NCBI GenBank assembly: GCA_031291675.1
Contig: JARLIO010000002.1
Span: 1 to 64,000, forward strand
Length of the DNA stretch: 64,000 nucleotides
From: Azospirillaceae bacterium
GTDB taxonomy: Bacteria; Pseudomonadota; Alphaproteobacteria; Azospirillales; Azospirillaceae
Reading direction: 5' to 3'
Each line of letters starts with the position of its first letter. Position 1 is the first letter of the stretch. This document shows, piece after piece, positions 6,519 to 59,070 of this stretch. Under the pieces are notes generated by a model. That model ran no database searches. It was not told the DNA's origin and saw only the letters and a program-made list of their open reading frames with translations. A program made the position numbers and the translations under genes.

Positions 6519-6591
6519 CGCGCATAACGCGCCGCTGACCGTGTTGCCCTGTCCGCCCCGCTTCTGTGATCGTCCTGGCCGGGGCCCGGCA

Positions 6592-6757
6592 CAGCCGTTG
6601 TCATTTTGGCCGTCGGCCCGCGGGCTACCGCCCGCACCCGCTCGGGGTGAACCCCGAATACCCCTCTATTTTGACAAAAACAAAGGGGTCTGGGGCATGG
6701 CCCCCGTTGGGTTTGGCCGAAAGCCCAACGCGTCGTCGCCAAAATGAGAACCGCTGG
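6592..6757 (+). mobile_element. MITE-like element, copy A
   Basis: A 166-bp non-coding element with imperfect terminal inverted repeats of about 18 bp (left AGCCGTTGTCATTTTGGC; right end, reversed, AGCGGTTCTCATTTTGGC). It is flanked on both sides by the 8-bp direct repeat gcccggca (6584-6591 and 6758-6765), as expected for a target-site duplication. A near-identical inverted copy lies at 46377-46539. Internally it can fold: ACCCCT pairs with AGGGGT around a loop containing TTTTGACAAAAAC, and GTTGGG pairs with CCCAAC. It encodes no protein, so mobility would depend on a transposase elsewhere. Confidence 0.75.
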
Positions 6758-6835
6758 GCCCGGCATATGGGGTTGGCGGCAAGGCTTTTGTCCTGCTAGG
6801 ATAGCCTCTCCCCGACAAGGATAAAGGCGGTCGTT

Positions 6836-20554: not shown

Positions 20555-20644
20555 GGATGGGTGGCCGAGTGGTTTAAGGCACCGGTCTTGAAAACCGGCG
20601 TAGGTGCAAGCCTGCCGTGGGTTCAAATCCCACCCCATCCGCCA
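20555..20644 (+). tRNA. tRNA-Ser (TGA anticodon)
   Basis: A complete class II tRNA of 90 nt: acceptor GGATGGG pairs with CCCATCC, the anticodon arm CCGGT-CTTGAAA-ACCGG carries TGA (reads UCA), a long variable arm is present, then the TTCAAATC loop, discriminator G and encoded CCA. Its 3' end (20635-20644) is also the left end of a long direct repeat, as seen where integrative elements use a tRNA gene as a target. Confidence 0.97.
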
Positions 20645-20791
20645 TTTTCACGTGTGTGTGGGTTCGCGCATTGTCAAGACAAGACAAGTAGCGCGGGGAA
20701 CTCCGGTCTCCAGAGGATCTATTGTCTGGATGCGGAAGCATCTCCGCGGTGTCCAGGATCATTCCCGCCAACACAAAGCGCTCCAGCTCGA
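20635..20791 (+). repeat. Direct repeat R1 starting in tRNA-Ser
   Basis: 157 nt repeated almost exactly at 22143-22313. It begins with CCATCCGCCA of the tRNA 3' end, followed by TTTTCACG, four TG units, then the shared 120-nt body. Apart from the TG count only about two bases differ. Together R1 and R2 bracket the Rpn gene like attL and attR, or like a tandem duplication. Confidence 0.85.
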
Positions 20792-21896: not shown

Positions 21897-22029
21897 GACG
21901 GCTTATTGGCTTTGCTGAGGGCCGGCGTCAAGCCGAAAAGTCCGTTTTGAAAACCAAAGCCCGCTTCCCCAACCCGGCTGTTCCCCATTACAATGTCCAG
22001 AAATCTCGTGTGGCTTCCCCTGGTTCGTC

Positions 22030-22160
22030 CGTCAATGCCTGCCGTCGTTCGCGACCAGCCGGAAATAGATGATGGGTGGATTGATGGGTTATTGTGAGAT
22101 GCCATTCATTTTTCGCAGAGTTACGGGATCAGCAGCGGAACACCATCCGCCATTTTCACG
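22030..22160 (+). repeat. Diverged repeat, left copy
   Basis: About 130 nt similar to 23540-23670. The best block is GCGACCAGCCGGA followed a few bases later by TGATGGGTGGATTG and TGGGTTATT; both copies end in TCCGCCATTT, the sequence also found at the tRNA-Ser 3' end. Confidence 0.55.
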
Positions 22161-22313
22161 TGTGTGTGTGTGTGTGTGTGTGGGTTCGCGCGTTGTCAAG
22201 ACAAGACAAGTAGCGCGGGGAACTCCGGTCTCCAGAGGATCTATTGTCTGGATGCGGAAGCACCTCCGCGGTGTCCAGGATCATTCCCGCCAACACAAAG
22301 CGCTCCAGCTCGA
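22143..22313 (+). repeat. Direct repeat R2
   Basis: Second copy of the repeat that starts in tRNA-Ser. It has eleven TG units (22161-22182) where R1 has four, which accounts for its extra 14 nt. Beyond CTCGA at 22313 the two copies diverge. Confidence 0.85.
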
Positions 22314-23382: not shown

Positions 23383-24019
23383 CCAACATGGCGATGACCA
23401 GATTCAGCACGGCCGGCGGCGATCAGTCGGATGAATTGCAACGAACGAATTGTTGGGACCCCGCTTCTGGGTGAGGCTTTCGGAAGTGAGCAAGCGACAC
23501 TGATCGCGACAACAATCGGACGGATCCTCTCCGGTCCGTCTGTAGATGTGTGCGATCGTTTGCGACCAGCCGGAGGATTCTGATGGGTGGATTGTTGGGT
23601 TATTTGCCACGATCCAAAATTTTCGGCGGATTTCCGGAATGATCAGGGGACATCCCTCCGCCATTTCGGCGCGATCGCTTCTTGATATCAAAAGCATTTT
23701 GCACCGTTGCTCCCAGCCAGCCCAGCTTGGAACCCGCAAATGGGAAAAGCCTTCGGCTGAACGCTCATCGACCTTGCTGTCGCCGGACAATCACCAAATC
23801 GGTCGCCGTAGAAGGCTGGTGTCGATGCTTGCTCAGCCATAGGCTTGGCGTATCCGACACCGGTCAGCACAACGACACCGGAAACGCCCGAATATTCGCC
23901 GTATTTTTCAGGAACTTTGGCAAGATCCTGCGCTACATTACGTTGGGCAAACCCTGACAGGAACTGATTCTCTTGCTCACCGTCGGTCAACCAATCCGCT
24001 TCTTCGTCTCGTCTGCTGA
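23383..24019. other. Gap with a diverged repeat, no clear gene
   Basis: Contains the right copy of the diverged repeat (23540-23670). An open minus-strand frame (23688-24038) has a plausible amino-acid make-up (for example SGVSGVVVLTGVGYAKPM) but no ribosome-binding site and no family I recognise, so it is not called as a gene. Confidence 0.4.
23540..23670 (+). repeat. Diverged repeat, right copy
   Basis: Matches 22030-22160 with frequent substitutions. The distance between the copies is about 1.5 kb, almost the same as between R1 and R2, which hints at two units of similar size inserted one after another. Confidence 0.5.
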
Positions 24020-26659
24020 TCAGTAATATGACAAACAACGACGGTCATTGTGGAAAACATAAGATGCGGTCTGCCCCAGGTCGCGATGTTGTTGTGTCGC
24101 GATTCTGATTGCGTTCCAGGCATCGTGCAAACTCGGCTCCAGATCCGGCGACGGCCCGACGATCGGCGCGTTCCCGCCCAGAAAATCAAGCCGACGGTAG
24201 GCATTCAGCAACGAGACGGTCTGTGGCATCAGGCGGTTGCCGGGATGATCGGGGGCCCGCCGCACCAGTGCCCCCAGAAGCGCAACCGCCAGATCGATGT
24301 CGCAGCGCGGAACGTCGAAATGATGGGCCCGATGGCCGAGCGCGATCTCGGCCATCCGGAAAATCCGGTCCGGCTCTATCTGTCCCGCCAGGGCGTGAAT
24401 ACCGGCGACCGATCGCGGCAGGGTCCAGGCCCGCAAATCTTCGATTCCCGTGGTCACGCCGGCTGTGGTCCTGATTTCCGGATAGTTGAGATATTCCCCC
24501 AGCGTGCGATCGAGCGTCCGCACCTGCAGCGCCGGAAAGGCCCGAAGTTTGAATTCGGTATCGCTGGCGCCGCGAAAGCTGCCGTCGTACCAACCGAAGC
24601 GATCATGCAACTGGCGCCGGTACAAAGCCGGGACATGACCGACATAGGCCGTGTCGATCACCAGGAAATCGGCGTCCACGGTGCGCCGTTCGCAGATGTT
24701 GATATCGTCGAGATAGCGTCCGGTCGCGTCGGTTTGGATCACCACCGCACTGGCCTGGACCCAGTTGACCGCCGGATCGAGCTCCAGGGCCGCCACCAGG
24801 AGCGCCAGCGCATCGGGATGGAGAGCCTCGTCGGCGCCCAGAAAACCCAGATAGGGCGCGCGCGACGCCGCGATGCCCCGGTTCCAGGCCTGGGGAATCG
24901 TTTCCCGGTCCCGGGTGCGCAGATAGAGGCATTCCGGAAAGCCCTCGATCGCGGCCCACTCGTCGCACGGTGAGCCGCTGTCGACAAAGATCACCTCGAC
25001 CAGACCGTCGCGGACCATCGTCTGGCGGCGCAGCAGGTCCAGGAACCGGGGCATCTTGGGTGCGGCATTGTACAGCGATACGATCAAGGCAACCCGTGGC
25101 GCCGGATGGGTGCGGCCATCGATATGGCGTTCGATACGAGCCGGGGTCAGAAGCCGACAGCGTTCCCGGGCGTGATCGAGAAACATGGCACAACGCGCCT
25201 CGGCAGCGGCCGGATCGTCAAACAGCGCCTCGGCCGCCGCCGCCTCATGCGGCATTGCGGCACGACGCAACGATTCCGCGACCATGGCGAGACGACCGAA
25301 GCGGTCCGCACCCGCCAGCCGCATCGCCTTCAGATCGCAGGCATCGGCGTCCGGATTTTCACCGTCCAGGCGGTGAAGACGCGCCAGTTCGCCCAGAATC
25401 CGGCCATGGTCGATCCGCAACGTCAGCGCATGCCGCAAAATCTGTTTCTTCAGGGCCCGGGACCCGGCCCCATTTTCAGGCACCGCCGCATAGAGCCGGT
25501 AGGCTTCGGAGAGTGGCGGCAAAGCATCCGCAAGCTGCTGTTCCGGGTCCCGTGCGCCGTGCCGCACCGCAGCCGGTGCCGCACTCTCCAATATCAGGTC
25601 CAGTCGCGACCGGGCGGCCGCAACCAGGGATCGGAAGTCCGCGGTCCGCAGCACCGGGCTTTGATAGATTGCCGCCAGGGAACGACCATCGACGCGCGGT
25701 GTCCAGGTCTGAAGATAGCCGGTCAGCGCCGCACGCCGGTCATCATAGCCCACCAGTAGCCGGGTCAAATCGGCGGCTGCGGCCTGGGGATCGCCGGGAT
25801 CGAATTCCAGCCAGGGCAGGCCCGGGAAACTATCGGCCAAAAGCCGGGCGGTCCCGGCACCGCGGCCAACCACCAGCGGGCAGCCGCTCACCAGCGCTTC
25901 CAGCGCGGTCAAATCGATGGCCTGCGATCCCGGGGGCACGATCACCAGATTGCGAGCCGTGAATAGCGATCGCCAGCAAAGGTCGTCGCCCGTCGTGACG
26001 TCAAGCTTCCGAAAAGCGAAGGCGGCAGGGACCGCCCCGTCCATGATGATCTCCCGATAGGCGGCACGGGGCAGCCACCACAGCAGTTCGGCAACCGGAT
26101 CCCGGGACCCGAGCACCACAATCCCGGGGGGCTCGGGGGCCGGACGGCACGATGTCGCCCGCGCCTGGAAGCCAAGGCGGAGCGGACTGAGATAATGGCC
26201 GGCGATCCCCTCGGCAGCGGTCCGGGATTCAAGAATGACATGGCTGAGGCCGTAACGGACGTCCGCCGCGCGATACAGCAGGCTGTGCAAGGCCGCGGAA
26301 TCGTCTGATGCTGCCGGCAACCCGGTCGCGGCCAAAACCAGACGGTCGTAACGCACACCGAACCGGTCCAGCGCCGCCAGCAGATAGACGGCAAGGGGAT
26401 CATGTTCGGGAAGGTCGAGCACGTCGAAATGCTGCCCCGCGAAGGCCGCCGCGATCCCGAGAAAATCCGATACCGCCGGATCATCCGTCGCCGGAACCCC
26501 GGGTGCCACCGGATAGGCATTGGGCGGCATCTGGCCGGACACCGCCTTTTCCGCGAAATAAAAATCGATGTCCGGGTTTGACCTCACCAGGGAACGGTAG
26601 TGGCCCCCGTCGCTTCCAGATCCGCCAAAGCAATCCCGGACCCCGAGTAACACTTTCAT
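24020..26659 (-). CDS. Two-domain glycosyltransferase (GT-B plus GT2)
   Basis: An 879-residue cytoplasmic protein. The N-terminal 360 residues resemble a GT-B (GT4-type) transferase, with LTALEALVSGCPLVVGRGAG as the nucleotide-sugar-binding region. A helical middle follows (about 370-520). Residues about 520-750 form a GT2/GT-A domain: PRVALIVSLYNAAPKMPRFL, VIFVDSGSP, and FLGADEALHPDALALLVAAL, with GADE where GT2 enzymes have the metal-binding DxD-like motif. Probably acts on cell-surface polysaccharide or protein glycans; no flanking glycan genes are present to narrow this. Start at ATG 26659 (MKVLLGVRD), with the frame open to 26704. Confidence 0.75.
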   Translation of the reverse strand: MKVLLGVRDCFGGSGSDGGHYRSLVRSNPDIDFYFAEKAVSGQMPPNAYPVAPGVPATDDPAVSDFLGIAAAFAGQHFDVLDLPEHDPLAVYLLAALDRFGVRYDRLVLAATGLPAASDDSAALHSLLYRAADVRYGLSHVILESRTAAEGIAGHYLSPLRLGFQARATSCRPAPEPPGIVVLGSRDPVAELLWWLPRAAYREIIMDGAVPAAFAFRKLDVTTGDDLCWRSLFTARNLVIVPPGSQAIDLTALEALVSGCPLVVGRGAGTARLLADSFPGLPWLEFDPGDPQAAAADLTRLLVGYDDRRAALTGYLQTWTPRVDGRSLAAIYQSPVLRTADFRSLVAAARSRLDLILESAAPAAVRHGARDPEQQLADALPPLSEAYRLYAAVPENGAGSRALKKQILRHALTLRIDHGRILGELARLHRLDGENPDADACDLKAMRLAGADRFGRLAMVAESLRRAAMPHEAAAAEALFDDPAAAEARCAMFLDHARERCRLLTPARIERHIDGRTHPAPRVALIVSLYNAAPKMPRFLDLLRRQTMVRDGLVEVIFVDSGSPCDEWAAIEGFPECLYLRTRDRETIPQAWNRGIAASRAPYLGFLGADEALHPDALALLVAALELDPAVNWVQASAVVIQTDATGRYLDDINICERRTVDADFLVIDTAYVGHVPALYRRQLHDRFGWYDGSFRGASDTEFKLRAFPALQVRTLDRTLGEYLNYPEIRTTAGVTTGIEDLRAWTLPRSVAGIHALAGQIEPDRIFRMAEIALGHRAHHFDVPRCDIDLAVALLGALVRRAPDHPGNRLMPQTVSLLNAYRRLDFLGGNAPIVGPSPDLEPSLHDAWNAIRIATQQHRDLGQTASYVFHNDRRCLSYY

Positions 26660-46271: not shown

Positions 46272-46376
46272 CGTCAGGGGCTCCACCGGTTGCATCGATC
46301 CCGTTGATGGATCCGGGACTCGCGCCGCCAAACTAACACCGCTTGGGCATCCCGCCAAACGCCGAGCACCAGGGAC

Positions 46377-46539
46377 CAGCGGTTCTCCTTTTGGCGACGC
46401 CGCGTTGGGCTTTCGCCCAAACCCGACGGGGGCCATGCCCCAGCCCCCTTTGTTTTTGTCAAAATAGAGGGGGTTCGGGGTTCACCGAGCGGGTGCGGGC
46501 GGCAGCACGCGGGCCGACAGCCAAAATGGGAACGGCTGG
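46377..46539 (-). mobile_element. MITE-like element, copy B
   Basis: A 163-bp copy, inverted relative to the one at 6592-6757 and about 90 percent identical by eye. Terminal repeats CAGCGGTTCTCCTTTTGGC and the reverse of GCCAAAATGGGAACGGCTGG. Flanked by the 8-bp direct repeat ccagggac (46369-46376 and 46540-46547). Its main stem has CCCCCT/AGGGGG where copy A has ACCCCT/AGGGGT, a compensatory change. Confidence 0.75.
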
Positions 46540-46592
46540 CCAGGGACGGTCGCCGCCGATCACCTCGGGCTCGATTCGCGTTTTCGGCGCAA

Positions 46593-53377: not shown

Positions 53378-55456
53378 ATGGATGCGAATTCTAATCCTCA
53401 TACCTTTTACCTCGTTCCGGTCTCGCGCGAGGTCGGATTGACGTCGATGGCATTGGGGCTGGTCCGAGCGCTGGTGCAAGCCGGTGTCAAGGTTGGCTTC
53501 GTCAAGCCGGTGGTCCAGCCCGGGCTGCTTCCAGGTCACGAGGATCTCGGCAGTCATTACGCCCGCAAATTGTGCGGTGTCGCCGCGCCCGATCCGATCG
53601 CGTTCGAGCATGCCGCCGAACTGGTGCGAACCGGCCAATTGCCGACCCTGATGGAGGAGATCGTCGCCCTGGTCGCGACGGTCCGCGCCCATTGCGACGT
53701 TGTCGTCGTCGAAGGCATGATCGCGGATGCCGATATCCAGATCGCCACGCGACTGAATGTCGAGATCGCGCGCAGCCTCGGTGCCGAGCTGATCCCCGTT
53801 GTGTCGGGCGAGCGTCACGGGGCGGACGACCTCGACGCCGTCGTGACCCTGGCCGGACAGCAATATGGTGATGGCGGCCGGCGCCCGGTTGCCGGCGTTC
53901 TGGTCAACATGCTTGAGGATGCGGCGGCGGCGGCGAAGCTGCGTGCCGACAGCAATGTGAAGGTGCCGCTGCTGGCCGCGGTACCCCAGGCCAACGACCT
54001 TGCCGCGCCGCGGCTCACCGACATCGTCGACTCCCTGGGCCTTGAAGTGCTGCAGGCCGGCAATCTTGCCACTACCCGCGTCGCCAAGACTCTGGTCGCT
54101 GCGGGCGGCCCGGAAACCTTGCTGCAGCATCTGCGCCCCGACACCCTGGTGGTGACGCCCGGCGACCGCTCGGACGCGATCGTCGCGACCTCCCTGGCGG
54201 GGCAACAGGGGATGCCGCTCGCCGGGCTGTTGCTGACCTGCGGCGAGCCGATGGCCCCGGGCCTGATGCAGCGGTTCACCGCGGCGCCGCTCGACCGGAT
54301 GTCGATCCTGATGTCACAGGAGGATACGTTCACGGTCGGCGCCAAGCTGGCGCAGCTCACCCATCATGTCGGCGCCGATGACCCGGAACTCACCGAGCGA
54401 TTGATCGCTTTCATCGCCGGAAAGATCACGGTTGCCCCGCTGCTCGCCCGCCTCAAGCTGGCGACCGACACGTTGATGTCCCCGCCGATCTTCCGCCACC
54501 GCCTCGTCGAACTGGCGCGCAGCGCACCGAAACGGATCGTGCTGCCGGAAGGCGATGAGCCGCGAACCATTCGCGCGGCGGCGATTTGCGCGGAAAAGGG
54601 TATCGCGCAGTGCGTCCTTCTGGGCTCGCCCAGCAAGATCCACGCGATCGCCGCGGCCGAGGGGATCACCCTGCCCGGCAGTATCGAGATCATCGATCCC
54701 GATGGCATTCGCCGCAATTACGTCGCCCCCATGGTGGAGCTGCGCAAAGCCAAAGGACTGACCGCCCCGCAGGCGGAGAAGCAGCTTGAGGATACCGTCG
54801 TGCTCGGCACCATGATGCTGGCGCAGGGCGATGTCGATGGCCTGGTCTCCGGTGCGGTTCACACCACGGCCAGCACCATTCGCCCCGCCCTGCAACTGAT
54901 CAAGACGGCGCCCGGGTCCTCAATCGTGTCCAGCGTCTTCTTCATGCTGCTGCCCGACCAGGTTCTGGTCTATGGCGATTGCGCGATCAATCCCGATCCG
55001 ACCGCCACGGAGCTCGCCGAAATCGCGATGCAGTCGGCCGACAGCGCCAAGTCCTTCGGCGTCGAACCGCGTGTCGCGATGATCTCCTATTCGACCGGAT
55101 CGTCAGGCGCGGGCAGCGACGTCGAGAAGGTGCGCGAGGCCACCGCCCTGGTGCGCCAACGGCGTCCCGAGTTGATCATCGACGGCCCGATCCAATATGA
55201 CGCCGCCAGTGTCGAAAGCGTCGGCGCCCAGAAGGCCCCGGGCAGCCCGCTGCATGGTCACGCCACCGTGTTCGTGTTCCCCGATCTCAACACCGGCAAC
55301 ACCACCTACAAGGCGGTGCAACGCTCGGCCAACGTGGTCTCGGTCGGCCCGATGCTGCAGGGCTTGCGCAAGCCGGTCAATGATCTGTCCCGCGGCGCGC
55401 TCGTCGACGACATCATCTTCACCATCGCCCTGACGGCGATCCAGGCGCAAAACTAG
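53378..55456 (+). CDS. pta: Phosphate acetyltransferase, long form
   Basis: A 692-residue enzyme interconverting acetyl-CoA and acetyl phosphate. The N-terminal 360 residues are an AAA/BioD-like domain (FYLVPVSREVGLTSMALGLVRAL) plus the regulatory DRTGG domain; the C-terminal PTA_PTB domain begins near PPIFRHRLVELARSAPKRIVLPEGDEPRTIRAA and includes VFFMLLPDQVLVYGDCAINPDPT and ISYSTGSSGAGSDVEKVREA. ATG 53378 follows AGGAAG. No ackA gene is present in the window. Confidence 0.95.
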   Translation: MDANSNPHTFYLVPVSREVGLTSMALGLVRALVQAGVKVGFVKPVVQPGLLPGHEDLGSHYARKLCGVAAPDPIAFEHAAELVRTGQLPTLMEEIVALVATVRAHCDVVVVEGMIADADIQIATRLNVEIARSLGAELIPVVSGERHGADDLDAVVTLAGQQYGDGGRRPVAGVLVNMLEDAAAAAKLRADSNVKVPLLAAVPQANDLAAPRLTDIVDSLGLEVLQAGNLATTRVAKTLVAAGGPETLLQHLRPDTLVVTPGDRSDAIVATSLAGQQGMPLAGLLLTCGEPMAPGLMQRFTAAPLDRMSILMSQEDTFTVGAKLAQLTHHVGADDPELTERLIAFIAGKITVAPLLARLKLATDTLMSPPIFRHRLVELARSAPKRIVLPEGDEPRTIRAAAICAEKGIAQCVLLGSPSKIHAIAAAEGITLPGSIEIIDPDGIRRNYVAPMVELRKAKGLTAPQAEKQLEDTVVLGTMMLAQGDVDGLVSGAVHTTASTIRPALQLIKTAPGSSIVSSVFFMLLPDQVLVYGDCAINPDPTATELAEIAMQSADSAKSFGVEPRVAMISYSTGSSGAGSDVEKVREATALVRQRRPELIIDGPIQYDAASVESVGAQKAPGSPLHGHATVFVFPDLNTGNTTYKAVQRSANVVSVGPMLQGLRKPVNDLSRGALVDDIIFTIALTAIQAQN

Positions 55457-55603
55457 GACCCGCCCGCCATGATCTTGACTCATGGCGGGCGGGTCCCGGT
55501 CGCGACGGCGACCGCGCGCCACGGGGGCGCGGAGCCAAGCGCCCGGATGGGCGCGCCGGCGCCTGAGGCTTCGCTTTGATCGGTCACGATCAAAGCGGAC
55601 TCG
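55456..55603 (+). repeat. Two-hairpin element, copy A (bidirectional terminator)
   Basis: Hairpin 1: a perfect 17-bp stem (55456-55472 with 55480-55496) with loop TCTTGAC. Hairpin 2: CGCTTTGATC (55572-55581) with GATCAAAGCG (55588-55597), loop GGTCAC. A 48-nt GC-rich insert separates them. Placed immediately after pta and convergent with deoC. An inverted, shorter copy is at 58920-59016. Confidence 0.8.
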
Positions 55604-55670
55604 TAGAAGACCAGCCTGGCGCGGTTCCGCATCGTGCAACGGTGCGGAACCGCGATCCACCGATCGTCAT

Positions 55671-56342
55671 TCAGCCGGCGATGATGGTGATCCCGGCGCT
55701 GGCGCCGATCCGGGTCGCCCCGGCGCGCAGCATGCTTTCAGCATCTGCGAAAGTGCGAATGCCGCCAGACGCCTTGACCCCCATGCTGTCACCGACGGTG
55801 CGCCGCATCAGAGCCACGTCGGCAGTCGTGGCACCGCCTTTGCTGTAGCCGGTCGAGGTCTTGACGAAATCAGCCCCGGCGGCCTGGCTCAGTTGGCAGG
55901 CGCGGACGATTTCGGCCTCGGTCAAGAGGCAGGTCTCAAGGATGACCTTGAGGGTCGCGGCGCCGCAGGCGCGCTTGACCCCGGCGATGTCCGCACGAAC
56001 CGCATCATCGTCGCCGTCCTTCATCGGGCCCAGCGCCAGCACCATGTCGACTTCATCGGCACCCTGTGCCACGACCCAGGCGGCTTCGGCGGCCTTGAGC
56101 GGCGTCGGGATCGCGCCAAACGGAAAGCCGATGACGGAGCAGGTGAGAACGCCACTCCCGCTCAGCGCGCCGGCGACCAGCGGAACGAAGATTGGATTGA
56201 CGCACACGGAGCAGAAGCGGTGCGTCCTGGCCTCTTCACAGAAGCGCAGGACGTCGGCACGGCCGGCTTCCGGCCGCAGGATCGTATGATCGATCACGCC
56301 GGCAAGATCGGCCGGTTTGGCCCACCACGGAACAACACCCAT
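55671..56342 (-). CDS. deoC: Deoxyribose-phosphate aldolase
   Basis: A 223-residue TIM-barrel aldolase that splits deoxyribose-5-phosphate into acetaldehyde and glyceraldehyde-3-phosphate. Schiff-base lysine in [18 protein letters not shown], second lysine in [11 protein letters not shown], and [15 protein letters not shown] are diagnostic. Convergent with pta; the acetaldehyde product links loosely to acetyl metabolism. Confidence 0.95.
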
Positions 56343-56854
56343 CAGGCTTTCTCCGAACTCAGGACATCACGACACATGACGCGGTGACTTTCGGTCAAGG
56401 AAGGGCTCAAGGCAAGATCCGATCCCATATGGTGTCGGCGGCACCACCGCAGCCCAACCCCTGATAGCGCTTGGAAATGAGCCTGCGTCATCACCGGTTG
56501 AAGATCCCAAAGGCCGAGACTGACAGGGCGGCGGAACGCAACGGCCATTCCTTATGACCGTTAGTATAACTAGGCGGCGAACGAGAAAGACGATAACTTT
56601 TTTCCCGAGCGTCGTCGCGAATTCATTTGGATAAATAAAATAGTATCGACCACTTCCGTCATCACCTCCCATAGCCGCAAGGCGGACATTCACGTTCGAT
56701 GAGACCTGTTCGTTAAGAAAGAATAAAAATATTTGTTGTCATTAATTTTAATCCCTATCACATTCTCATTCTTTAGGCCACCTGTCTTTCCCTGGTGATT
56801 TTCTTTTTCTCTCATCGATGATTTTCCTTTGCAAAGAAGAAAGGAACGGCTGCC
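56343..56854. other. AT-rich upstream region of MCP gene
   Basis: About 510 nt without a gene. The part from 56560 to 56840 is markedly AT-rich (for example TTGTTGTCATTAATTTTAAT), unlike the rest of the window, and contains an imperfect repeat of AAGAAAGAAT with ATTCTCATTCTTT. Likely holds the promoter of the following chemoreceptor gene. Confidence 0.4.
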
Positions 56855-58918
56855 ATGAGCCTTCGAAAACTTATTTTGACGGTCAATTTGGCCATGGGAT
56901 CTATTGCGATCCTGGTGGCCGGTTTTATTGCTTTGAATGCGATCAATGATCTTCGTCGACAAACCGAAGCGGCGCGCGATCTGAACGCATTTGAGCTTTC
57001 CCTCAAAATCGGCGGGCAGATCCCCATCGAGCGGAGCAAGTGGGCCGGCGTTCTGGCGCCGGATGCGCCAGCCACGCCGGCGGCCTTGGATGAACTCGAC
57101 AAGGCGGTAGCGACGACCGATGGCATCATCGGGGCGAGCCTTCAAGCCATCGAAGCCGCAAAACTGCCTGTCACGAATCTGGTCGCCGCCACGACCCTAT
57201 TGAAACGCATGCGTACCGACTTGCGCCAGGCCGCCCTTAAGCCCAAGAGCGAGCGTCCCGCCAATGCGCTGGCCGCTTCCGTCGACGGGCTCGCCCAGGG
57301 CCTGATATCCATTGATCTGCAAGTCGAAGAAATATACCGCAACTTGACCATGATTTCGCCGGACCAGACCGCGGCCGCGAACCTCGCGCTGCTCGCTCAG
57401 AACATGCGCAACATCAACGGAACGCGATCGTCCATCCTCGGTCTCTATATTCGCCACGAGGCTTTCCCGCCGGAGCGCGTGCAGGAAGTTACCGAGCTGA
57501 CCGGGCAGGTCGCCCTGCTCTGGCGTTTTCTGGAACAGGGGGTTCACGATCTGGGCGACCCGGAGCGGTTGAGCGCCGCTTTGGCGCATGTTCGCAGCAC
57601 CATGATGGCCGACAGCGAAAAACGCTATCAGGCGGTCGTCACCGCGGCACGAACCAACCAGCCGACCAGCGAACAGAAAGAGACCTGGAGCAACTGGACC
57701 ACCCCGACATTGAACAACATCTTCATCCTGCGCGACGCCGCGCTCGAGCGCGCCCATGGCTTGAACGATGCCGCAGTTCACAATGCCAAAATCCGCGTCG
57801 CCATCGCATGCGCCATTTTGCTGGCCATCTGCCTGGTGTCGGCCGGTGCGACCGTCCTTCTGTCGCGCCGGGTAATCCGCCGCTTGACCCGATTGACCGA
57901 GATCATGGGACGTCTGGCCAATCATGAGCTTTCCGTCGAAATCCCGAGCCAGACCGGTGCTGATGAAATCGGAGCCATGGCCCAAGCGATGCACGTCCTT
58001 CGTGACAACAGCCTGCGCGCCGATCAGCTTGGCCTCGAACAAGAGGCGACCCGCGCCCTGCAAATGAAACGGACGACGACGATCGAGGGCTTGACCCAGG
58101 ATTTTGATCAGAAGATTTCTCGCGTTCTCGAAATCGTGTCAGCCGCCTGTGGCGACATGGACGCCACGGCGCGGGGTCTGGCGACAAGTGCCGAGCACAC
58201 CAGCAAGCGATCCCTCGCCGTTGCCGCGGCGACCGCGCAGGCATCCGGCAGTGTCCAAACCGTGGCCAGCGCAACCGAGGAATTGTCGTCATCGATCGCC
58301 GAGATCGCCCGCCAGGTTGAACAATCCAATGTGGCGGCGACAGGTGCCGCGCAGGAGGCCGGGGAAGCCGAAACGACGGTCAAGGTGCTCGCGGAAACCT
58401 CGGCAAAAATCGGTGTTGTCGTCAACCTGATCCAGGGCATCGCGAGCCAGACCAATCTTCTCGCGCTCAATGCGACAATCGAGGCGGCGCGGGCCGGAGA
58501 GATGGGCAAAGGCTTCGCCGTCGTTGCGAACGAGGTGAAAAGCCTCGCCAACCAGACCGCCAACGCGACCGAGGAGATCACGGCTCACATCGCCGCCGTG
58601 CGAAAGTCAACCGACCTGGTGGTTCATGCCATCAACGGCATTGTCGGCCGGATTGGTAACGTCAGCGAGGTCTCGGCCTCCATTGCCTCGGCGGTGGAAG
58701 AGCAATCCGCCGCGGCGGCGGAAATTGCCCGGAACGTGCAACAGGCCGCGACCGGAACTCAGAACATTTCCTCGAACATCACCGCGGTCAGTGAGGCCGC
58801 GGGGGAAACCGGTTTGGCCTCGCAGCAGATGTTGACCGTATCGCAAACGCTGTCGACCGAAGCCGTTGGCCTTAAATCGGTGGTTGAAGCGTTCCTTGCC
58901 GGCGTCCGCGCCGTGTGA
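56855..58918 (+). CDS. Methyl-accepting chemotaxis protein
   Basis: A 687-residue receptor starting [20 protein letters not shown]. First membrane helix at about 8-30, a helical sensory domain to about residue 315, second helix ([22 protein letters not shown]), HAMP ([23 protein letters not shown]), then a canonical signalling tip [19 protein letters not shown] and [21 protein letters not shown] 56855, with AAAGGA upstream. Ends before a two-hairpin element. Confidence 0.95.
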
Positions 58919-58919
58919 C

Positions 58920-59016
58920 ACGAATCCGCTTTGATCGTGACCGATCAAAGCGGAGCCTGAGGCGCCGGCGCGACCGGGACCAGCCCGCCATGAGGCAAGA
59001 TCATGGCGGGCTGGTA
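58920..59016 (-). repeat. Two-hairpin element, copy B (bidirectional terminator)
   Basis: Hairpin 2: CCGCTTTGATC (58926-58936) with GATCAAAGCGG (58943-58953). Hairpin 1: 15-bp stem (58979-58993 with 59001-59015), loop GGCAAGA. Same layout as the copy at 55456 but inverted and lacking the 48-nt insert. One stem pair is A:T here and C:G in copy A. Between convergent MCP and yqhD genes. Confidence 0.8.
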
Positions 59017-59070
59017 TGACACCGACACGCGGCGGCCGGTTTTGGCCTGCCGCCGCGTCGCGCCCCTCGC

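Follow-up and report, generated by a model that had tools for sequence, protein, structure and literature searches.

A probable miniature inverted-repeat transposable element with hairpin ends at gene 3′ ends in an Azospirillaceae genome

Background

Here we describe a short structured element in a 64,000-nucleotide stretch of DNA from an Azospirillaceae bacterium (assembly GCA_031291675.1, contig JARLIO010000002.1, forward-strand positions 1 to 64,000), the whole of which we call the window. Two copies, A (55457-55605, + strand, 149 nt) and B (58919-59016, - strand, 98 nt), lie there in inverse orientation. With a probability of roughly 0.9 they belong to a non-autonomous transposable family of about 147 nt resembling miniature inverted-repeat transposable elements (MITEs). 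The family is multi-copy, with fixed ends, matching TNA triplets beside them, hairpins whose stems covary and a bias towards the 3′ ends of genes, and it is present in other genera and families. The element is real, fits the bacterial MITEs and has left an unusually clear footprint.

An earlier note on this DNA had placed both copies, inverted with respect to each other, in two gaps between convergent genes. Gene calls and Pfam bear this out, and the places it gave hold, with the exact limits of the element corrected to those above. The pair was also recovered as the inverted-repeat pairs I3 and I4.

A dispersed family flanked by TNA duplications

The source genome comprises 5,866,595 bases in 99 contigs. 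Searching it by BLAST with A gave 44 match rows, the best 40 of 152 candidates being scored, while the 122 rows obtained with B at E <= 1 often split a single copy into parts. Merging the matches in the window and in the 40 fetched stretches left 52 places, and the 47 of these that measure at least 45 nt were aligned; as a copy number this means at least 47, genome searches resting on the best candidates per genome. One of the 47 (L019:7578-7652) resembles a sister subfamily, S2. An 18-nt core pattern occurred 34 times with up to two mismatches, against once for the reversed control, and an end pattern 59 times with up to one mismatch, against none for the control. Flanks differ among the 47 matches, apart from four with a common junction near contig ends. 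With its size of about 147 nt and its 47 matches, the family is, like MITEs, short, multi-copy and apparently devoid of a gene of its own. Among plasmid records no copies were found at E 1e-5, a search outside which near records may fall.

A second property of MITEs, a target-site duplication, takes the form of a 3-bp TNA triplet repeated on either side of the element. In the source genome TNA stands on both sides of 20 of the 28 copies with both ends truly located (four of 32 rows, in which the right anchor had settled on the left hairpin to give a length of 39, are not real pairs and were dropped). The middle base is equal in 15 of these 20 (permutation mean 5.9, p 2e-5). Of the 29 relatives' copies whose two ends were located, 26 carry TNA left and right, and in 24 of the 26 the middle base is equal (permutation mean 7.1; 0 of 100,000 shuffles); 15 of the 29 come from one species, Aerophototrophica crusticola, and three copies with a wrongly set left end were dropped. 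Since the pattern by which the relatives' left ends were found requires TNA, independent evidence there comes solely from the letters at the right end and from the two triplets being equal. At the right end, which lies outside the search pattern, the triplet begins with T in 56 and ends with A in 50 of 60 relatives' copies. In further families, equal TNA triplets stand at both model ends in 8 of 27 inspected loci found outside the source genome with a covariance model. In the window itself, B carries TGA on both sides, and A has TAG on its left and GAA on its right.

Architecture of the element and of copies A and B

The canonical unit consists of two terminal hairpins and three inner ones, ordered in the orientation of A as TNA, the left hairpin beginning with TACCA, H4, H3, H2, a TGAGG box, the right hairpin closing with TGGTA, and TNA. 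These ends, TACCA...TGGTA, are terminal inverted repeats as found in MITEs; TACCRRYCCGCNWTGATC fits both ends in the source genome, and elsewhere mainly TACCA is shared.

Copy A has this long form and folds into five hairpins on its minus strand. On the + strand its left target triplet TAG (55454-55456) is the stop codon of pta, and the triplet on the other side (55606-55608) is GAA, so that no duplication is visible. The left terminal hairpin (55458-55494) has 15-bp arms and a 7-nt loop, at which lies GACTC, a GANTC site. It is followed by the inner hairpins H4 (55497-55514, CGGTCGC / GCGACCG), H3 (55515-55531, CGCGCC / GGCGCG) and H2 (55534-55560, with the conserved sides GCCAAGC ... GGC), by the conserved TGAGG box (55564-55568; CCTCA on the other strand) and by the right terminal hairpin (55572-55597), which has 11-bp arms, a 4-nt loop and a hairpin tip, TGATCGTGACCGATCA, that is common to other genera. 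Copy B is a short form, flanked by the TGA stop codon of a methyl-accepting chemotaxis protein (MCP) gene (58916-58918, + strand) and by the second copy of that triplet (59017-59019); both terminal hairpins are present and H2-H4 are mostly gone.

The earlier note had counted 48 extra nucleotides in A; an insertion in A is not borne out. Four of the 28 copies with both ends truly located in the source genome, B among them, measure 97-110 nt and one measures 121 nt; the long form with inner hairpins is usual there, and relatives also carry inner hairpins. Because the long form is the rule, the extra nucleotides of A were probably original and lost in B. The 149 and 98 nt are best read as a deletion in B, with A probably free of any insertion.

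Five hairpins in a row appear in five of six single sequences, A included (printed folds, right-end-first strand), the sixth, L104, nesting the inner ones; the best fold of A on the + strand keeps both terminal hairpins and pairs the middle differently. The folding energy of A is -104.5 kcal/mol against -72.0 +/- 4.6 for shuffles (z = -7.2, + strand) and that of B -62.8 against -34.9 +/- 3.3 kcal/mol (z = -8.4, - strand), with none of 200 shuffles folding as stably as either. GANTC sits at a fixed place within the left hairpin in 25 of 36 copies of the source genome and in 19 of 32 relatives' copies, the latter count keeping the three with a wrongly set end; the remaining copies, B included, lack it there. 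Rfam gave no match to the element above its gathering score in the window and four relatives' loci, and annotation could therefore take the element for a terminator or a small RNA.

The source genome also holds sister subfamilies with a common left end and other bodies: S2 (loci L058, L059, L061, L062 and L065) and the longer S3 (L066, L068, L060 and L025). A right-end fragment of S2 lies in the window upstream of the MCP gene (56534-56567, + strand, 88% over 34 nt).

The four copies with a shared junction (L034:136-142, L040:255-261, L041:6285-6291 and L047:236-242) all break off within the right hairpin at an identical position (CGGAT), beyond which each reads GGCTCTATTCGCGTTAG close to a contig end; in two of them the sequence then runs identically into a possible gene. 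The pattern suggests an insertion sequence (IS) that lands at one site of the element.

Stop codons and gene ends

Copy A lies where pta (PTA_PTB) faces a gene for a DeoC-type aldolase, and copy B where the MCP gene faces a gene for an iron-containing alcohol dehydrogenase; both gene pairs are convergent, and Pfam confirms all four genes. The pta TAG and the MCP gene TGA exemplify a wider pattern, examined with gene calls from a dicodon gene finder written by us. The target triplet is the exact in-frame stop codon of a neighbouring gene in 15 of 38 insertions of the source genome (8.6 expected if sites were drawn at random from the TNA positions in those gaps, p 0.003) and in 23 of 47 relatives' insertions (19.1 expected, p 0.06). 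Unusable for these counts were nine of 47 copies of the source genome (five without TNA or TAG, two within a predicted gene, two at edges) and 13 of 60 relatives' copies (five without TNA or TAG, eight at edges). Most of the coincidence with stop codons follows from TNA specificity together with the few TNA sites in these gaps, and a small excess remains in the source genome.

Enrichment in convergent gaps, a check put forward in the earlier note, was found in both samples. Against TNA-weighted background gaps, taken from the fetched loci rather than from whole genomes, convergent gaps hold 11 of 38 insertions in the source genome (5.8 expected, p 0.04) and 25 of 47 in relatives (6.3 expected, p 1e-10); because 21 of the latter come from A. 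crusticola, they are not 47 independent lineages. Divergent gaps are depleted, with 2 insertions in the source genome and 3 in relatives (11.2 and 10.5 expected), and tandem gaps hold 25 of 38 and 19 (20.9 and 30.1 expected).

Distribution in related genomes

BLAST with A found matches, mostly to its middle and right part, in 24 of 59 relatives' genomes, the source genome included. Scanning a collection of named genomes with a sequence pattern yielded 67 stretches, of which seven were dropped by eye (L082, L103, L106, L114, L125, L129 and L148). Twenty-five of the 60 kept are from A. crusticola and the others from Nitrospirillum, Azospirillum, Siccirubricoccus, Caenispirillum and various metagenome-assembled genomes, one of them labelled Stygiobacter, possibly through a binning error. 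The covariance model matched at E <= 1e-4 in 24 of 289 genomes of the class, the source genome included; 27 loci outside the source genome were inspected, one more being too short. About ten weak loci have no TACCA ends and probably share the inner module only. A query made of the element with its flanks matches every one of the 11 genomes in the genus to which A. crusticola belongs; among the matches listed, those in 10 of the 11 cover the element, though many extend over its 80-nt inner module only.

In congeners of A. crusticola this inner module (H2-H4, about 80 nt) also occurs in close tandem (G324:C32:23922-24001 and 24024-24103; G328:C37:12724-13038), apparently without element ends, as judged from the match rows.

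Stem covariation

The stem pair that the earlier note had seen as C:G in one copy and A:T in the other is real, and corresponds to 55461:55491 in A. It is one instance of a covariation that runs through the family. Among 36 left hairpins of the source genome there are 17 two-sided changes, 7 one-sided but paired, 29 broken and 487 unchanged cells; 5000 shuffles gave a mean of 2.5 two-sided changes and a maximum of 10. Some of the 29 broken cells stem from one copy with a deletion. Across genera, alignment A1 holds 38 of 50 sequences (left out were 8 from the source genome and 4 from relatives, three of the latter because their left end had been misplaced), with 42 pairs and 86% of cells paired. 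Two-sided changes number 198, whereas shuffles give 75.5 +/- 6.2 and slid pairing no more than 55. Any two-sided change is seen in 22 pairs, a value that 7 of 500 shuffles reach, the shuffled mean being 18.3. These cross-genus figures are not probabilities, because the aligned sequences are related to one another and themselves served to derive the structure.

Paired changes of this kind may arise in two ways. Strand switching at replication corrects quasipalindromes, and such a mutational process, rather than selection for structure, is a serious contender as their source, although we lean against it. The stems are long and near perfect, and they covary even among copies at unrelated loci of one genome, as correction would have it; the layout of terminal and inner stems is nevertheless kept across genera, which suggests a shared constraint, and 29 broken against 17 compensated cells in the source genome leave room for both views. 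Selection on the fold and self-correction of palindromes alike predict the covariation observed.

Proposed mobilisation

Each end of the element is a hairpin with TACCA at its outer edge, and we propose that a DDE-type transposase acting in trans would insert the element at TNA while duplicating three bases. Since these genomes are GC-rich and their short gaps offer few TNA sites, and since TAA and TGA both fit TNA, stop codons lend themselves as targets. Insertion at a TAA or TGA stop codon would re-create the stop; with the stop triplet duplicated and the stop codon intact, insertion would be nearly harmless, so that copies persist at gene ends. Survival would be best in convergent gaps, because no promoter is hit there. 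Insertion at TGA stop codons, accompanied by duplication, is also reported for the MIRU of mycobacteria. Short forms such as B would have arisen by deletion of inner hairpins, and the stems may be kept paired by the needs of a transposase, by a role of the RNA or by self-correction of the palindromes. A broader proposal is tentative and, on present evidence, rather doubtful: that this is one structured mobile-element family across Alphaproteobacteria, to which the CIR elements discussed below may belong, whose transposase reads hairpin ends with arms that vary between genera but stay paired, whose landing on TNA or a stop codon re-creates the stop, and whose copies become 3′ untranslated regions (UTRs) with a CcrM (GANTC) site in a loop.

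Several observations weigh against mobilisation as outlined here. No autonomous partner with TACCA ends was found in the 99-contig assembly or at the relatives' transposase loci. Eight of the 28 copies with both ends truly located in the source genome, A included, have no TNA on one or both sides, and at 19 of the 27 inspected covariance-model loci the model ends are not flanked by equal TNA triplets. When TNA scarcity is allowed for, little of the stop-codon excess is left, chiefly in relatives; 2 of the 47 copies in the source genome lie inside predicted genes, and congeneric genomes offered for the L126 locus only a rearranged locus and no clean empty counterpart.

The mobiliser could be an IS5-type (IS1031-like) transposase, and the element an internal-deletion derivative of such an IS, although we consider this unlikely. 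It is favoured by the fact that members of the IS1031 group typically duplicate a 3-bp TNA target, and a broken DDE_Tnp_1 gene whose 3′ side closes with CGTTCACTGGTA and then TAA adjoins one copy. At 19 relatives' loci of that transposase (L180-L198), however, the end letters show at least five mismatches in 19 at best. Matches to the transposase occur in 19 of 59 genomes, which represent 3 of 13 genera (the source genus, g7 and g11); the listed genomes of g2 and g12, two genera rich in the element, gave none, and the DUF4096 IS of the source genome has other ends, as read by eye.

Two IS5-type candidates were rejected as mobiliser because their ends do not fit, and the DDE_Tnp_1 and DUF4096 genes of the source genome do not show the ends of the element. 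The broken IS5-type transposase (DDE_Tnp_1) lies at L025:3000-3920, its 3′ side ending in CGAGCGTTCACTGGTA followed by TAA, and adjoins an S3 end and an S1 copy.

Terminators, REPs and local duplication

Use as two-way terminators, the function that the earlier note had suggested, finds no support. Intrinsic terminators have a GC-rich stem followed by a T-tract, and the tails of the hairpins lack such tracts: at each of four tail positions, none or one copy has at least 5 T in 8 (27 copies of the source genome, 29 of relatives). The region has 4 terminator-like sites (4.2 expected), none of which is A or B, and each of the two gaps holds a separate strong hairpin outside the element, at about 55617-55659 and 59025-59062. 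That the element is nonetheless a BIME-like (bacterial interspersed mosaic element) two-way terminator, selected at convergent gene ends, is improbable. Enrichment in convergent gaps, very stable hairpins directly past stop codons and stem covariation would all suit that explanation. Yet 25 of the 38 insertions in the source genome sit in tandem gaps, and TNA targeting together with avoidance of promoters accounts for much of the placement. In copies at stop codons, moreover, the first stem begins about 1-8 nt past the stop and would lie under the terminating ribosome. A weaker role of the element in 3′ UTRs may exist.

The earlier note's interpretation was right in part: the family is dispersed, structured and covarying and favours convergent gaps, but membership of the BIMEs in the strict sense finds no support, because its unit is not made of 20-40-nt repetitive extragenic palindromes (REPs) and has TACCA...TGGTA ends with a 3-bp duplication. 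The GTAG- or CGTC-tagged REPs and BIMEs, as the part of PMC3733652 drawn on here describes them, are palindromic, prefer convergent and unidirectional gaps, lie near gene 3′ ends and consist of tagged units of 20-40 bp with other ends; a 3-bp duplication is not mentioned in that part. That we are dealing with REPs mobilised by a RAYT tyrosine transposase is accordingly very improbable, a judgement made without a search aimed at RAYT genes: the element is palindromic, intergenic and near gene 3′ ends as REPs are, but its unit of about 147 nt lacks their tags, and the 3-bp duplication weakens the case further. That one local duplication gave rise to A and B, which the earlier note would have accepted had these been the only two copies, is refuted by a dispersed family with 47 aligned matches in the genome, and although A and B lie only 3.3 kb apart they differ by 51 nt and in their target triplets.

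Relation to known repeats

A description of this element was not found in the literature searched, which covered few subscription journals. The kind it most resembles is the Caulobacter CcrM-associated intergenic repeat (CIR), attributed to Chen and Shapiro 2003; the likeness is one of description, not of compared letters. By the accounts in the portions of PMC2229807 and PMC10969869 used here, CIRs have two arms, a linker and GANTC in a loop. Both kinds are alphaproteobacterial intergenic repeats of more than 100 bp, conserved between species; in both a linker connects two long inverted-repeat arms, one of which bears GANTC at its loop, and TA stands at the termini (PMC2229807, Table 1). CIRs differ in being about 110 bp long, whereas the present element has about 147 nt and extra hairpins in its linker. 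Their target duplication is marked "?" and their movement is said to need more to ascertain (PMC2229807, Table 1 and section 7), while a 3-bp TNA duplication is seen here. This clean duplication, in the source genome and in relatives, makes the movement of CIR-type elements testable.

The ERIC, RUP and Correia/NEMIS MITEs share with the element a length below 200 bp, the lack of a protein, inverted ends with TA termini, a target duplication and a stable transcript fold, as summarised in the relevant part of PMC2229807. There, however, the 5′ and 3′ ends form a single stem loop, whereas each end is a hairpin here and the duplication is a TNA triplet. Br-REP1 of Bradyrhizobium, also alphaproteobacterial, has three palindromes and occurs where the 3′ UTRs of convergent genes overlap; its consensus stem loop (20 nt) is of other sequence, and ends or duplication are not described in the section of PMC5082802 cited. 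That stop codons are among the landing sites gives a simple explanation for the crowding of hairpin repeats at gene ends, one in which they need not be terminators.

Other repeats in the window

Two further sets of repeats were seen in the window. A long inverted pair (6585-6761 / 46372-46545) is complementary at 94% over 101 nt and at 87% over 61 nt, and is perhaps another dispersed repeat. Direct repeats at 20632-20791, 22022-22313 and 23533-23604 are spaced by about 1.5 kb and form a series that begins where a tRNA gene (20555-20641) ends, perhaps the outcome of repeated integration at the tRNA.

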